Shown one piece after another: positions 12,760 through 58,050 of a stretch of DNA of 64,000 nt (positions within the stretch are counted from its first letter, which is position 1; the number at the start of each line of letters is the position of its first letter). The stretch covers positions 124,001-188,000 of the forward strand of contig NZ_LUTS01000002.1 of NCBI RefSeq assembly GCF_001597735.1. Direction: 5' to 3'. Origin of the DNA: Neptuniibacter pectenicola. Its GTDB lineage: Bacteria; Pseudomonadota; Gammaproteobacteria; Pseudomonadales; Balneatricaceae. A program made the position numbers and the translations under genes. Below the pieces are notes generated by a model that was not told the DNA's origin, searched no databases, and saw only the letters and a program-made list of their open reading frames with translations.

Positions 12760-13407
12760 ATGATGTCTTTAAATATGCGTTCTCTTTCTATTAGTAGCGC
12801 TATTGCTGCGTGTTTGGTTAGCCCTTACTCTCTTGCACTAGACGCGCATGTCCATGGTGCGGCGGTTTTGGAGGTTGCAAAAGAGGGAGGGGAGATTGAA
12901 GCCGTACTTCGGTCGCCCATGGCAAATATTGTGGGCTTTGAATACGAAGCAAGATCGGCGGAAGATAAAGCGACACAAGCTAATGCCTTAGAAATCCTTA
13001 AAAATGCGAATAATATATTGAAACTTTCTGCCTCGGCGCACTGTCTGAGTGACAATGTTGAGGTGGTTTTAGGGCACGACGATCATGACGGGCACGATGA
13101 CCATGATGGACACGATGACCATGATGGACACGACGACCATGACGACCATGACGGGCACGACGATCATGACGGGCACGACGATCATGACGGACACGACGAT
13201 CATGATGGACACGAGGATCATGAAGGTCATGCCGATATTACAGTCACGTACCGTTTTACATGCAGTAATCCTGATGCGTTGACTGATATGAACGTTGGCT
13301 TATTTGACGCATTTAACAGGGTCGAAAAGCTTCATGTTAACCTGATTACAGATAAGGGTGCTCAGCAGTTTGAGCTAACGCCGTCTTCTAACCATTTCAA
13401 ATTTTAA
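12760..13407 (+). CDS. zrgA: ZrgA-like periplasmic zinc-uptake protein (DUF2796), His-rich
   Basis: 215 residues (213 if translation begins at the second ATG at 12763, which has better spacing from GAGG). A signal peptide runs to about SLALDAHVHG, leaving an early His pair on the mature protein. The middle (about residues 105-155) is a run of HDDHDG units with more than 20 histidines, typical of metal-scavenging loops. Flanking parts match DUF2796: HVHGAAVLEVA near the start and a conserved Cys pair (AHCLSD and FTCSNP) that may form a disulfide. Vibrio cholerae ZrgA of this family belongs to a zinc-repressed uptake operon. A Zur-like box precedes it and an ABC transporter follows 26 bases later. 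Confidence 0.85.
   Translation: MMSLNMRSLSISSAIAACLVSPYSLALDAHVHGAAVLEVAKEGGEIEAVLRSPMANIVGFEYEARSAEDKATQANALEILKNANNILKLSASAHCLSDNVEVVLGHDDHDGHDDHDGHDDHDGHDDHDDHDGHDDHDGHDDHDGHDDHDGHEDHEGHADITVTYRFTCSNPDALTDMNVGLFDAFNRVEKLHVNLITDKGAQQFELTPSSNHFKF
13077..13220 (+). repeat. 18-base tandem repeat coding for His/Asp linker
   Basis: About eight imperfect copies of an 18-base unit such as GACGGGCACGACGATCAT encode HDDHDG repeats in the middle of the zinc protein. One copy is shortened (DDHDDHDG), as expected from slippage during replication. The number of copies is likely to vary between strains and would change the number of metal-binding histidines. Confidence 0.9.
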
Positions 13408-17301: not shown

Positions 17302-18483
17302 CTATAGGGCTACGTTAACCGATGTCGAGCCACGAATGGCTTTCTCTTTAGCGGCTTGTACTGTTTCATCCCGAGCCAATACAACGCCCATGCGACGCTG
17401 GCCAACCACTTCAGGCTTACCGAAGAGTCTGAGCTGAGTATTAGGTTCTGCAAGCACCTGCTGCAAATTTCCAAAGCGCGCTTGACTTGATTCCCCTTCA
17501 ACAAGAATAACGCTGGAGGCGGAAGGGCCATGAAAATGGATATTGGGAATAGGGAGACCCAAAATAGCACGGGCATGTAGAGCGAACTCAGAAAGATCTT
17601 GGGAGATCATCGTAACCATGCCTGTATCATGGGGGCGAGGTGAAACTTCACTAAAGTAAACATCATCACCTTTAATGAACAGCTCTACACCAAAGATCCC
17701 ATGTCCGCCTAATGCCGCTGTTACCTTACTGGCAATATCACGAGACTTTTCTAGTGCGATAGGGCTCATGGCCTGAGGCTGCCATGATTGTCTGTAATCA
17801 CCATTGACTTGTACGTGACCAATCGGCTCGCAGAAGCTGGTATTACTATCGTGACGAACGGTAAGTAATGTGATCTCATAATCAAAGTCGACAAAGCCTT
17901 CTACAATGACTTTGCCTTTCCCCGCGCGTCCACCTTCTTGAGCATAATGCCAAGCACTTTCAACCTGTTCCGCTGATTTAAGTGTGCTTTGCCCTTTACC
18001 GGAAGAGCTCATAACGGGTTTCACAACACAGGGCAGGCCGATTGCGTCAACTGCTGCGATATATTCATCATGGGTGGTAGCGAAACGGTAATTAGATGTT
18101 GGGATATTGAGTTCTTCAGCGGCTAAGCGGCGAATGCCTTCGCGGTTCATGGTTAATTGAGTTGCGCGTGCGGTAGGAATAACATTAAAGCCTTCCTTCT
18201 CAAGCTCAACCAGCGTGTCAGTGGCAATGGCTTCTATTTCAGGCACAATCAGATGTGGTTTTTCTAATTCGATAACCTTACGTAGGGCATCACCATCGAG
18301 CATTGAGATGACATGGCTTCTATGGGCAACGTGCATACCCGGTGCATTTTCATAGCGATCGACAACAATGACCTCTGCACCTAAACGCTGTAGCTCAATG
18401 ACGACTTCTTTACCAAGCTCTCCGCCACCACACATTAATACTCGCGTTGCTGATGGTGAAAGAGGTGTCCCTATCTGTAGCAT
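17302..18483 (-). CDS. purT: Formate-dependent phosphoribosylglycinamide formyltransferase (GAR transformylase 2)
   Basis: 393 residues, the E. coli PurT length. The N-terminus [18 protein letters not shown] is the nucleotide-fold loop; [31 protein letters not shown] (ATP-grasp P-loop) and [16 protein letters not shown] motifs follow in order. The enzyme joins formate to GAR using ATP in step 3 of purine synthesis, as an alternative to PurN. It is monocistronic and transcribed away from a long non-coding region that contains a separate, oppositely directed RNA-like element. I see no PurR box. Confidence 0.97.
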
Positions 18484-18565
18484 TATCTAATCCTCAGCGT
18501 GAAAAAATTTCAAGTATTATACGGTGCAAATTGTGACAATCACCAGCAGAATGGAAACTGTCAGC

Positions 18566-18571
18566 TATAAT
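18566..18571 (+). promoter_or_regulatory. Consensus -10 box before the structured RNA candidate
   Basis: TATAAT is a perfect sigma-70 -10 element. No good -35 is seen at 17 bases, though TGTGACA lies further upstream. Transcription from here would begin near 18578 and run rightward into the structured region at 18600-18865, away from purT. Confidence 0.5.
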
Positions 18572-18606
18572 TATCTAGGTTGCTTCTCTTTACAGTGAGG
18601 CAGCCG

Positions 18607-18663
18607 ATGGGAACATGGGCCTTTGTTGTTTTGTTAGGATTGTGTCTGAATAGCAAAGGCTGA
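18607..18663 (+). CDS. Possible 18-residue hydrophobic leader peptide
   Basis: A short frame ATG to TGA encodes MGTWAFVVLLGLCLNSKG, a hydrophobic peptide of the kind seen in small membrane proteins or leader peptides. It is preceded by GTGAGGCAGCC, an acceptable ribosome-binding site. It lies in the 5' arm of the structured RNA candidate, so translation of it could alter the long-range pairing. It may be chance. Confidence 0.25.
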   Translation: MGTWAFVVLLGLCLNSKG

Positions 18664-18832
18664 GCTGTATTGTGAAGGCCGATATTTGCACAGTGAATAA
18701 TCAATTAAGAAGGTGATAAGCACCGTTGCAGATAGCACTGTCAGCGCATATCGACTTCATCGATGTTCCTCGTCACATTGTTTACTTTTTGCCTGAAAAA
18801 GGCCGATTAGTCGGAGTATCCATCCGGCAGGA

Positions 18833-18865
18833 GGGGGCGCACCGTTCACGGTGTCGCCCCCTTGT
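18833..18865 (+). terminator. Strong GC hairpin ending the structured RNA candidate
   Basis: GGGGGCGCACCG-TTCA-CGGTGTCGCCCCC forms a 12-bp stem with one bulged T, followed by TTGTTAATT. The stem is very stable and the U-rich tail is modest. It would end transcription about 105 bases before the PhnA-like gene, or control readthrough into it. Confidence 0.7.
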
Positions 18866-18970
18866 TAATTCTGGCTAGGCTGTTTTTATCTATTAGTCTT
18901 AATTAGCTGATATTCCTTTTATCCCCGTGAGAATGTGCTATTCCTATGATAGATATGGGAGGAAGGCGTT

Positions 18971-19375
18971 ATGTCTAGGAGTCATGCGCATCATCAGGAA
19001 CGGACCTCAGGATTATCAATTTTTGGCAAGGATCTGGTACGGCGTAGTGGTGCCCATTGTGAATTATGTGATGCCCACCGAGTGGCGCTGCATATCTATG
19101 AGGTTCCCCCAGCGCCTAAATTGCCGGACCTTAATGATTGCTTGATGTTGTGTGATCTGTGCTTAGATCAGATCGAGCGACCCAAACGGCGGGATAACAA
19201 CCATTGGCGTTGTTTAAACCACGCCATCTGGAGTGATGTCCCCGTGGTGAAAATGTTAGCCATTGCGATGTTGCAGCAAGTGGCCGAGGAGGAGCCTTGG
19301 GCGCTTGCGCTTTTCGAGCAGGTTTATTTAACCGATGACGAGCTGCGTTGGCAGGCACAGATAACACTGCCGTAG
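18971..19375 (+). CDS. PhnA-like zinc-ribbon protein
   Basis: 134 residues with good SD (GGAGGAAGG) before the ATG. RSGAHCELC and CDLCLDQIE supply two CxxC pairs, and NHWRCLNHAIWSDVPVVK is the signature of the proteobacterial proteins grouped as the PhnA N-terminal family, annotated from an old link to phosphonate operons. E. coli PhnA itself has no role in phosphonate breakdown, so function is unknown. A PhnA-type HNH-like zinc fold is likely. It lies downstream of the structured RNA candidate and converges with ansA (gap 5 bases). Confidence 0.8.
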   Translation: MSRSHAHHQERTSGLSIFGKDLVRRSGAHCELCDAHRVALHIYEVPPAPKLPDLNDCLMLCDLCLDQIERPKRRDNNHWRCLNHAIWSDVPVVKMLAIAMLQQVAEEEPWALALFEQVYLTDDELRWQAQITLP

Positions 19376-45368: not shown

Positions 45369-45445
<77 letters not shown>

Positions 45446-55210: not shown

Positions 55211-57820
55211 ATGACCGATCTGCACGAAGCGTTACGTGATGATGTTCGAATGCTGGGTACGAGCTTAGGTGAGACGATAAAAGCTCATTTAGGTGAAGCG
55301 CTATTTGAAAAGATAGAAGCGGTACGCCAGCTCGCAAAAGAGGGGCGAAATACGGCGGAATCTGAGCACGAAGAGCTCTTGCGCGCCTTAAAAGACTTAA
55401 GTGAAGACGATGTTTTACCGCTGTCTCGGGCCTTTACACAGTTTTTGAACCTTGCCAATATCGCCGAAGAGCACCACCGGGTACGCCGTCACCTTGAAGT
55501 GACGGATGTCTGTACGCCGGATTCACTCTGTACCTTGTTCTCGCAATTACGTCAGAAAGGCTTTTCACCACAGCAGGTATCAGGCGCCTTCAGTAAAATG
55601 CAGATCGATCTCGTGTTGACGGCCCACCCGACAGAGGTTAATCGTCGAACCCTGATTCAAAAATACGATGATATCGCTGAGTGTCTACGCCGCTTAGATC
55701 GCGGAGACGAAGATGCTCAACATCGTCTCGATGAGCTTATACGCCAAATTTGGCATACCGATGAGATTCGAAAGCAGCGCCCCACACCGGTCGATGAGGC
55801 TAAGTGGGGGTTTGCGGTTATCGAAAACTCCCTTTGGACCGCCGTACCTAAATTTTTGCGGCGTCTTGATTCCCAGCTGCATGAAACATTAGGCGAAAGG
55901 CTTCCACTCAATTGTTCGCCTATACGTTTTGCGTCATGGATGGGGGGCGATCGCGATGGCAACCCGAATGTGACCGCTAAAGTTACAGAAGAGGTTCTAC
56001 TGTTATCCCGTTGGATGGCGGCCGATCTCTACCTGAATGATATTGATGTTTTACGCGCTGAACTCTCTATGTACCGTGCCAATAAAGAGTTACGTGAGCG
56101 TGTTGGTGACTGCGCCGAGCCGTATCGTAAGCTTTTAGGTGAAGTACGTGAAAAACTCGCGGCCACTAAAAACTGGGTTGCCCGACAGCTCAATGGTAAA
56201 ACAGACAAAGAAAGTGAAATTCTTGTTCATGAAGACGCCTTATTAGAACCGTTGATGCTCTGCTATCGGTCACTACAAGAGTGTGGCATGGGGGTCATCG
56301 CTGAGAGTGCGTTAGAGGATATTATTCGTCGTATCGCCTGCTTTGGTTTAACACTGGTTAAACTCGATATTCGCCAGAGCTCAGATCGTCATGCGCAAGT
56401 GTTTGAAGAGCTCTCTCAATTTTATGGTTTAGGGTCCTATAATGGCTGGAGTGAAGAGGGGCGTCAGAACTTTTTGTTAAAAGAGTTACAAAGTCGCCGC
56501 CCATTGCTCCCTAATGGCTGGACGCCGTCGCCAGAGGTGCAGGAAGTCATCGATACCTGCCGTGTGGTCGCGCAAGCCGAGCCGAATGCGCTGGGTTCTT
56601 ATGTTATCTCTATGGCAAGTACACCTTCCGATGTGTTGGCAGTGATCTTACTGCTACGGGAGATGGGCATTAGCCACAATATGCGCGTTGTGCCGCTTTT
56701 TGAAACCTTAGATGATCTAGAAAGTGCGCGGGATTGTATTGATGCATTGCTAAAAGTGGATTGGTATAAGGCCTATACTGAAGGTCATCAAGAGGTGATG
56801 ATCGGCTATTCTGATTCGTCGAAAGATGCAGGGCAACTCGCCGCAGCGTGGGGACAATTTAAGGCACAAGAAGCGTTAACTCAGCTATGCAAAGAGCATG
56901 ATGTTCATCTGACCTTGTTCCACGGTCGAGGGGGCACCGTCGGGCGAGGCGGTGGTCCAAGCCATACGGCAATACTGGCACAACCGCCGGGTTCTGTTGA
57001 TCACAGCTTGCGTTTAACTGAACAGGGCGAAATGATCCGCTTTAAATACGGCATGCCTGACCTTGCTGTTCGTAACTTAGAGTTATGCACAGGGGCGGTC
57101 CTAGAAGCGACGCTTACGCCTGCGCCGGGTCCTGAAGAATCGTGGCGGGTTCAGATGGAGAGTATGGCGAAAAAAGGGTTAACGGATTACCGTGCTATTG
57201 TGCGTGATGACCCTAGTTTTGTGCCTTATTTCCGCGCCGCAACCCCAGAGCAAGAACTGGCGAAGCTGCCATTAGGCTCAAGGCCGGCTAAACGTCGTCA
57301 AGATGGTGGAGTAGAAAGTTTACGTGCCATTCCCTGGATCTTTGCCTGGACCCAGATTCGTTTGATGTTACCGGCATGGCTAGGCAGTGATACCGCGTTA
57401 GGTGAGGCCTTAAACGGTAGTAGTGCCGGACTGGTCAAACAAATGTATCAACAGTGGCCGTTCTTTCGTTCAACCATCGATATGCTTGAAATGGTGCTGG
57501 CCAAGAGTGATACCAATATCACGGCCTATTATGATAAACGCTTAGTATCACAAGAGCTGTGCGCGCTGGGTTCTAGCCTACGTAGCCGCTTGTTGAATAT
57601 CGTTATGTTGATTAACACCATTAAAGAGCAAGATTACCTATTACAGGGCAATCCGGTGATTAGACAATCCATTGATGTGCGTAACCCATACATCGATCCA
57701 CTGCATTTTTTACAAGCGGAATTACTGAACCGTGACCGTAATGAACCGGATCAACGCCTTGAACAAGCGTTAATGGTTACCATGGCCGGTATTTCAGCGG
57801 GGATGCGTAACACGGGTTAA
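55211..57820 (+). CDS. ppc: Phosphoenolpyruvate carboxylase
   Basis: 869 residues, near the E. coli 883. VLTAHPTEVNRRT contains the catalytic His; FHGRGGTVGRGGGPSH the second; QTVRYKFG-like segment GEMIRFKYGMPDLA and the end RNTG (GMRNTG) are diagnostic. It carboxylates PEP to oxaloacetate to refill the TCA cycle. A Shine-Dalgarno AGGAGGGG precedes the ATG. The gene stands alone; a GC hairpin follows. Confidence 0.97.
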   Translation: MTDLHEALRDDVRMLGTSLGETIKAHLGEALFEKIEAVRQLAKEGRNTAESEHEELLRALKDLSEDDVLPLSRAFTQFLNLANIAEEHHRVRRHLEVTDVCTPDSLCTLFSQLRQKGFSPQQVSGAFSKMQIDLVLTAHPTEVNRRTLIQKYDDIAECLRRLDRGDEDAQHRLDELIRQIWHTDEIRKQRPTPVDEAKWGFAVIENSLWTAVPKFLRRLDSQLHETLGERLPLNCSPIRFASWMGGDRDGNPNVTAKVTEEVLLLSRWMAADLYLNDIDVLRAELSMYRANKELRERVGDCAEPYRKLLGEVREKLAATKNWVARQLNGKTDKESEILVHEDALLEPLMLCYRSLQECGMGVIAESALEDIIRRIACFGLTLVKLDIRQSSDRHAQVFEELSQFYGLGSYNGWSEEGRQNFLLKELQSRRPLLPNGWTPSPEVQEVIDTCRVVAQAEPNALGSYVISMASTPSDVLAVILLLREMGISHNMRVVPLFETLDDLESARDCIDALLKVDWYKAYTEGHQEVMIGYSDSSKDAGQLAAAWGQFKAQEALTQLCKEHDVHLTLFHGRGGTVGRGGGPSHTAILAQPPGSVDHSLRLTEQGEMIRFKYGMPDLAVRNLELCTGAVLEATLTPAPGPEESWRVQMESMAKKGLTDYRAIVRDDPSFVPYFRAATPEQELAKLPLGSRPAKRRQDGGVESLRAIPWIFAWTQIRLMLPAWLGSDTALGEALNGSSAGLVKQMYQQWPFFRSTIDMLEMVLAKSDTNITAYYDKRLVSQELCALGSSLRSRLLNIVMLINTIKEQDYLLQGNPVIRQSIDVRNPYIDPLHFLQAELLNRDRNEPDQRLEQALMVTMAGISAGMRNTG

Positions 57821-57835
57821 TAAGGTAAAGTAGTC

Positions 57836-57859
57836 GGCCGCACGCATAGGGGTGCGGCC
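57836..57859 (+). terminator. Likely terminator after ppc
   Basis: GGCCGCAC-GCATAGGG-GTGCGGCC forms a strong stem followed by AAAATGCTGTTTATTTTT, so the T-run is delayed and the call is moderate. Confidence 0.55.
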
Positions 57860-57924
57860 AAAATGCTGTTTATTTTTGCAACGATTGTTCGTTTTCCGGA
57901 CTTTAGTTTAGGGTTGGTAGTGCT

Positions 57925-57945
57925 AATGTCGAATTGTTCGACATT
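57925..57945. promoter_or_regulatory. Perfect 9-bp inverted repeat upstream of adk, possible operator
   Basis: AATGTCGAA-TTG-TTCGACATT has nine perfectly paired bases per arm with a three-base gap, located 130 bases before adk. Its size and AT/CG content suit a dimeric regulator. A run of T does not follow, so it is not a classical terminator. No regulator gene is nearby. Confidence 0.5.
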
Positions 57946-58050
57946 TGAGGCGTGGTATTGTCCGTGGTCAGCGTTTTTTACAGCAACGAATTTTTTTGTT
58001 TTCGATAGCTTCTATTGGTCGGGAACATAACCATTTTTCTATTTTTTTAA

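Follow-up and report, generated by a model that had tools for sequence, protein, structure and literature searches.

The region studied here (18566-18865) lies in the window, i.e., the whole 64,000-nucleotide stretch of Neptuniibacter pectenicola DNA that was analysed, between purT on its left (17302-18483, minus strand) and an ORF of 134 amino acids on its right (18971-19375, plus strand). The initial annotation had called the right-hand ORF PhnA-like; this identity found no backing in Pfam, where no match was obtained at E values up to 5. By eye, the ORF shows zinc-ribbon-like CxxC pairs. A rightward promoter is predicted from the -10 box CTATAAT (18565-18571, plus strand), in which the perfect TATAAT reported earlier was indeed present at 18566-18571. 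CTATAMT, TTATACT or ATATACT was found upstream of the conserved element described below in 33 of 33 loci. No -35 box was recognised for the -10 at 18566, and transcription would be expected to start near 18578. The dyad TGAAAAAATTTCA (TGAA-N5-TTCA, with T-N11-A), a proposed site for a LysR-type activator, is located at 18500-18512, 65 bp before the -10 box.

We folded both strands of 18566-18865. The plus strand reached a minimum free energy (MFE) of -114.7 kcal/mol (z -6.2), with 0/200 shuffles as low, and a second shuffle set gave z -4.9, again with 0/200 shuffles as low. The minus strand showed a weaker fold (z -2.8, 0/200 shuffles as low). The internal hairpins and the terminal hairpin (18833-18861) that had been proposed for the region both appeared in the MFE fold of the plus strand. 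At its 3' end, a covariance model matched a conserved element of three hairpins (18788-18865, plus strand). Hairpin 1, GCCU-GAAAA-AGGC (18791-18803), showed two-sided changes in 3 of its 4 pairs among 32 distinct sequences, with 90.6% of cells paired. It is followed by the single-stranded linker CGAUUA (18804-18809; YGAUUA in Neptuniibacter), of which GATTA was found in 11/11 Neptuniibacter loci. Hairpin 2, GUCGGA-GUAUCCA-UCCGGC (18810-18828), was paired in 98.4% of cells and showed two-sided changes in 2 of 6 pairs; its loop, GUAUCCA, was present in 8 of the 11 Neptuniibacter. The terminator hairpin (18833-18861), with a weak U tract to 18863 (CUUGUUAAUU), had two-sided changes in 7 of 10 pairs and 91.9% of cells paired. 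Several Neptuniibacter terminators have a weak U tract.

Over the whole element, 93.6% of the pair cells were standard in the 32 distinct sequences, which come from six genera, and two-sided changes occurred in 12 of the 20 pairs. The number of two-sided change cells was 93, compared with 24.7 in shuffles and reached by 0/500 of them. The covariation score of 0.457 exceeded that of the shuffles (0.192) and of all slid versions (maximum 0.138). The alignment used was fitted to the structure and thus favours it. A MAFFT alignment of 10 Neptuniibacter sequences gave 92.9% of cells paired and two-sided changes in 6 of 20 pairs. Further pair types exceeded the shuffles in the largest set (32 sequences, 2/500), whereas in smaller sets they did not (10 Neptuniibacter, 465/500; another set, 295/500). 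G-U cells numbered 21 and A-C cells 7 (16 distinct sequences, alignment A4), indicating that the plus strand is favoured. In the element core, the window and L002 agree at 33 of 34 positions, and their purT four-fold sites are 0.41 identical. The least similar pairs among loci that lack the ORF described below (L001/L009 and L004/L009) were alike at 29 of 34 positions.

A search of the whole window with Rfam 15 at the gathering threshold gave one tRNA (45369-45442) and nothing else. Six matches within 18400-19000 were all far under threshold, and the view that no known RNA class fits was confirmed in that nothing reached the gathering threshold at 18566-18865. The window's own genome has one copy of the element, and a multi-copy element was rejected. 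A phage origin was also rejected, with 0 exact pattern matches in viral contigs.

To describe the distribution of the element, we used DNA searches and covariance models. In the DNA search, 10 of 11 Neptuniibacter genomes gave a match, with the window's own genome counted; for the remaining nine, the matching stretch was limited to part of query positions 236-299 of 341, at the 3' end. Covariance model R1, built on 10 sequences, detected the element in 11/11 Neptuniibacter. Three R1 matches (L035, L037 and L038; E 0.036-0.065) were set aside, none of which reached E 0.01 with model R2. By eye, L035 reads as a piece of coding sequence, and L037 is an antisense match in a gap flanked by what we take to be polymerase and ribosomal protein genes; L038 is alike. 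A reverse-strand match in L010 was excluded by a stricter cut-off. At E 0.01, R2 found the element in 35 of 116 family genomes, spread over 6 of 16 genera. A sample of the order (390 genomes) gave 5 matches with R2 at E 0.01 and 6 with model R3 at E 0.001, all within Neptuniibacter's family, and in a sample of the class (369 genomes) the own genome was the only match; both searches used stricter filters, with which weak matches are lost. One of the order matches (G070, locus L113, E 7.9e-6), which was outside the model-building set, lies between purT and mtnB. Meanwhile, a pattern scan of named genomes gave 11 records, of which seven are Neptuniibacter and two Pontibacterium; the remaining two are a record labelled uncultured Marinobacterium and an Oceanospirillaceae MAG. 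Genera without a name here carry our labels, and g15 is referred to as the Pontibacterium group. The 33-row alignment includes 5 of the 7 g8 genomes and 3 of the 6 g6 genomes of the R2 search, and four g7 loci, one of which was found with R2 and all four in another search.

The dyad was found together with the -10 box in 29 of the 33 element loci. The distance between them was 65 bp in 10 Neptuniibacter and 55 bp in one, 56 bp in four loci of the Pontibacterium group and five of g8, 67 bp in six g11 loci (L098 and L099 measured to ATATACT) and 34 bp in three g6 loci. In g7, the dyad was present in 0/4 loci within 1000 nt of the element. These spacings place the dyad on one helical face; a random-spacing simulation gave P 0.007 for the five spacings, 0.024 with 55 and 56 merged and 0.009 for three clusters. 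Across their 101,593 bases, these loci contain one more dyad. The dyad was present in g6 and g8, where no purT was found adjoining the element; therefore, it goes with the promoter of the element and not with purT alone. The dyad at 18500-18512 is also within the purT leader on the minus strand. On that strand, by eye, a TATAAT-like -10 (18516-18521) precedes the dyad and the purT start follows it, so that a protein bound there might also affect purT in Neptuniibacter.

Between promoter and element, some genomes carry an ORF of an uncharacterised, glycine-rich family of about 174 amino acids. An intact ORF similar to the 174-aa protein was found in 6 of 11 Neptuniibacter, upstream of the element (L005, L006, L007, L008, L010 and L023), and was absent in the species of the window and four others. 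In ORF-bearing loci, its stop lies shortly upstream of the element. Relatives of the family occurred in 39 of the 116 family genomes, and in the Pontibacterium group the ORF at the element locus was present in G108 and absent in three genomes. Pfam and NCBIfam gave nothing above cut-off as to its function (YflT, E 0.052, was below its own cut-off). In genus g2 (L047-L051), by eye, the ORF stop is followed by a conserved KxxxN(K/R)RYG* in another frame. In Pontibacterium L025 and L026, a GTG frame of 69-74 codons overlaps the element; it was not kept in L029.

In the purT tree, the species without the ORF fall into a single clade (support 0.924), suggesting that the ORF was probably lost once. 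L004 retains a recognisable remnant of the ORF, a pseudogene with a profile E of 2.4e-15. A DNA profile of the intact ORFs gave no match in the window spacer. When the window was compared with the L004 remnant alone, 0/200 shuffles scored as high, i.e., 18673-18740 (plus strand) aligned to this pseudogene above 200/200 shuffles and is a likely C-terminal remnant of a decayed glycine-rich membrane-protein ORF. Comparisons with single intact ORF loci were mixed: the number of shuffles, out of 200, that scored as high was 1, 1, 14, 38, 67 and 200. In the clade of the window, the ORF has decayed and the promoter and the element were kept. The initial annotation had also noted a possible hydrophobic peptide. 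A frame of 18 codons, MGTWAFVVLLGLCLNSKG, is present at 18607-18663 (plus strand); however, no similar peptide starting within 90 nt of the -10 was seen in the other four Neptuniibacter loci that lack the ORF. By eye, the position of this frame corresponds roughly to the start of the 174-aa ORF in ORF-bearing relatives, and the peptide may be a vestige of the start of the decayed ORF.

Compact relatives of the locus occur in other genera. The predicted RNA is about 119-144 nt in g8 and g6 and 132-134 nt in two g11 loci, and the 3' hairpins are the same. In g6, g8 and g11, we found what is expected of a stand-alone small RNA (sRNA), namely a predicted promoter, no conserved ORF, a conserved structure and a terminator; the window likewise shows these, with a decayed ORF. 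A nitrilase-family amidohydrolase lies upstream in 3/3 g6 loci, 3/4 g7 loci and one Pontibacterium locus, with an ORF intervening in g7 and Pontibacterium. L028 has a methionine aminotransferase upstream as well.

On balance, we consider it rather probable that the region is a gene for a small regulatory RNA, present in several genera of one marine gammaproteobacterial family and controlled by a LysR-type activator, possibly MetR. The initial annotation had proposed a new structured RNA, and the sequence comparisons support this through paired changes, strand asymmetry, a phased site, persistence after ORF decay and the lack of an Rfam match. What these comparisons show is the conservation of the element, its covariation and strand, the promoter with the dyad, and the decay of the ORF. 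The part that was kept and covaries is the 3' end (18788-18865); the long-range stem that had been put forward was the wrong part in which to seek the signal. In the model we propose, a LysR-type activator, possibly MetR, would bind the dyad at 18500-18512 and the bound activator would switch on the promoter with its -10 at 18566, producing an RNA of about 288 nt in the window with a terminator end at 18863; in the compact relatives the RNA would measure about 120-145 nt. The three-hairpin 3' end would be the working part of the RNA, with target mRNAs or an RNA chaperone probably contacting it through the conserved linker and hairpin 2. We infer that such an RNA is transcribed, acts independently and may function by base-pairing. 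The membrane-protein ORF could be carried on the same transcript in Neptuniibacter and the Pontibacterium group; in the lineage of the window, the ORF would have been lost and the RNA retained.

The initial annotation had instead treated the whole fold of about 290 nt, including the long-range stem, as the functional unit, which we regard as improbable. The 5' domain (18578-18787, plus strand), consisting of a hairpin (18578-18605) and the long-range stem (18606-18774), folds well in the window, and the stem is predicted in the MFE fold. The domain alone had a z of about -4 (~-3.9), and values were -3.2 in both L002 and L003 and -3.3, -2.0 and -4.4 in Pontibacterium; however, z was -0.2 in L004 and -0.3 and +1.2 in g11 (L009 was left out because of its length). 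Moreover, when 220 pieces of 195 nt were drawn at random from the window, 2 folded as low as the 5' domain, indicating that its fold is by itself an event of about 1%. The two pieces that folded equally well or better were 57816-58010 (z -4.5) and 13065-13259 (z -4.0), on the minus strand. The stem was not kept in other Neptuniibacter. Its 12 long-range pairs were paired in 2/8, 2/8, 4/11 and 2/9 alignable cells of the other four ORF-less Neptuniibacter, no better than slid controls, in an alignment (A5) that is poor in the 5' domain. Part of the stem probably lies, judging from the alignment to L004, inside the decayed ORF remnant. In Pontibacterium (L025, L026 and L029), a 5' domain of 150 nt lies between the -10 and the element and includes an invariant apical hairpin, CAGUGU-CAGGCAUCA-ACACUG. 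Its long helix of 25 pairs was 97.3% paired with 5 two-sided changes in three sequences, two of which are nearly identical and from which the structure was predicted, whereas the other helix (10 pairs) was only 73.3% paired. A structured 5' domain may thus exist in some lineages. We also considered a common 5'-terminal hairpin and rejected it: of 17 loci, L001 and L027 alone had fewer than 5% of shuffles as low.

Two further explanations were considered. The element could be a mere 3' untranslated end and terminator that protects the membrane-protein mRNA from nucleases, and in keeping with this it lies close behind the ORF in 6/11 Neptuniibacter, 4/4 g7 loci and a single genome from the Pontibacterium group. 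However, it stays near-identical in loci with a decayed ORF or none, and it occurs without an ORF of the 174-aa type in g6, g8 and g11; we therefore consider this explanation unlikely. Alternatively, the element could be a cis-acting leader, riboswitch-like with a terminator, that attenuates the next gene. Such a gene is available in part of the family: mtnB follows on the same strand about 90-240 nt downstream in 3/3 g6 and 6/6 g11 loci searched, and the phnA-like gene does so in Neptuniibacter and the Pontibacterium group. Meanwhile, the next gene is convergent in 4/4 g8 loci inspected, indicating that the RNA stands alone there, and neither mtnB nor a phnA-like gene was found in the four fetched g7 loci. 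The downstream genes vary by genus, rather than forming the one same-strand gene set of a riboswitch, and a conserved block ahead of the phnA-like ATG resembles, by eye, a promoter of its own. For these reasons, we give the leader explanation little credence, and a small regulatory RNA gene remains the interpretation that we prefer.

The possible role of MetR was then considered. The published MetR consensus, 5'-TGAANNNNNTTCA-3' (PMC13393422), is identical to the dyad. A MetR-like protein with 40-47% identity to E. coli MetR was found in 11/11 Neptuniibacter, the genus searched (partial in G007). The TGAA-N5-TTCA site ahead of the promoter and the occurrence of a MetR-like protein are both as expected of a MetR-activated gene. 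A scan of the own genome with the narrower motif TGAAA-N3-TTTCA gave 6 sites, compared with 7 for the reversed control, and none of the other five sites was near a recognised methionine gene; they are in or near genes that are presumably atpG, ExbD/TonB-like and receptor-like, cytochrome c maturation, response-regulator-like and lysine aminomutase-like. Similarly, the dyad was absent from the fetched Neptuniibacter metR loci. The lack of sites at metR and at methionine genes counts against MetR. metF could not be used as a second MetR target: PF02219 matched partially in 3/11 Neptuniibacter, with one of the three exceeding the family cut-off, and not at all in the own genome, suggesting that another enzyme may make methyl-tetrahydrofolate there. 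The nearness of methionine salvage genes is compatible with MetR but circumstantial. We therefore advance only tentatively, and with considerable doubt, an sRNA controlled by MetR and connected with methionine and one-carbon metabolism. In evolution, its gene would alternate between a pure sRNA and a dual transcript, the membrane-protein ORF coming and going while the promoter and the three-hairpin end stay. If MetR were the activator, the RNA would be a regulator linked to methionine status.

OxyS and GcvB are of the type of stand-alone sRNAs under a LysR-type activator. Like them, the locus has a T-N11-A dyad that precedes a short RNA with several hairpins and a terminator end; unlike them, it has no Rfam match, has other neighbours and possibly carries an ORF inside the transcript. 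CpxQ, SdhX, NarS and SorX are described as 3' UTR-derived sRNAs in PMC9438474. The resemblance to these lies in a conserved structured 3' end behind an ORF (Neptuniibacter, g7), and in ORF-bearing genomes the position of the element would be compatible with such an origin; the window has no intact ORF. In contrast to these sRNAs, the element also occurs without such an ORF and outlasts it in the window's clade. The evidence is of the same type as that for the candidate structured RNAs obtained by comparative genomics in PMC2864571; the main text of that report contains none of MED92, Oceanospirill-, purT, phnA and Neptuniibacter. Searches of the literature on small RNAs or transcripts of Neptuniibacter, structured RNAs of Oceanospirillales and sRNAs controlled by MetR or other LysR-type proteins gave no such RNA by title. 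The locus offers an sRNA family that is concrete and testable, in marine bacteria that can be cultured and for which paper titles describe no sRNA. Because some of the related species carry the ORF and others lack it, they constitute a natural experiment on the conversion between regulatory RNA and mRNA.

Finally, we searched for targets with the 13-mer complement of GGAGTATCCATCC from the hairpin-2 region. This gave 36 matches in 11 genomes, of which 9 were the element itself. As to a conserved target, comparison of 21 of the remaining 27 loci gave one alike pair only, from two close relatives. The 27 matches exceed the 14 obtained with the reversed-pattern control.
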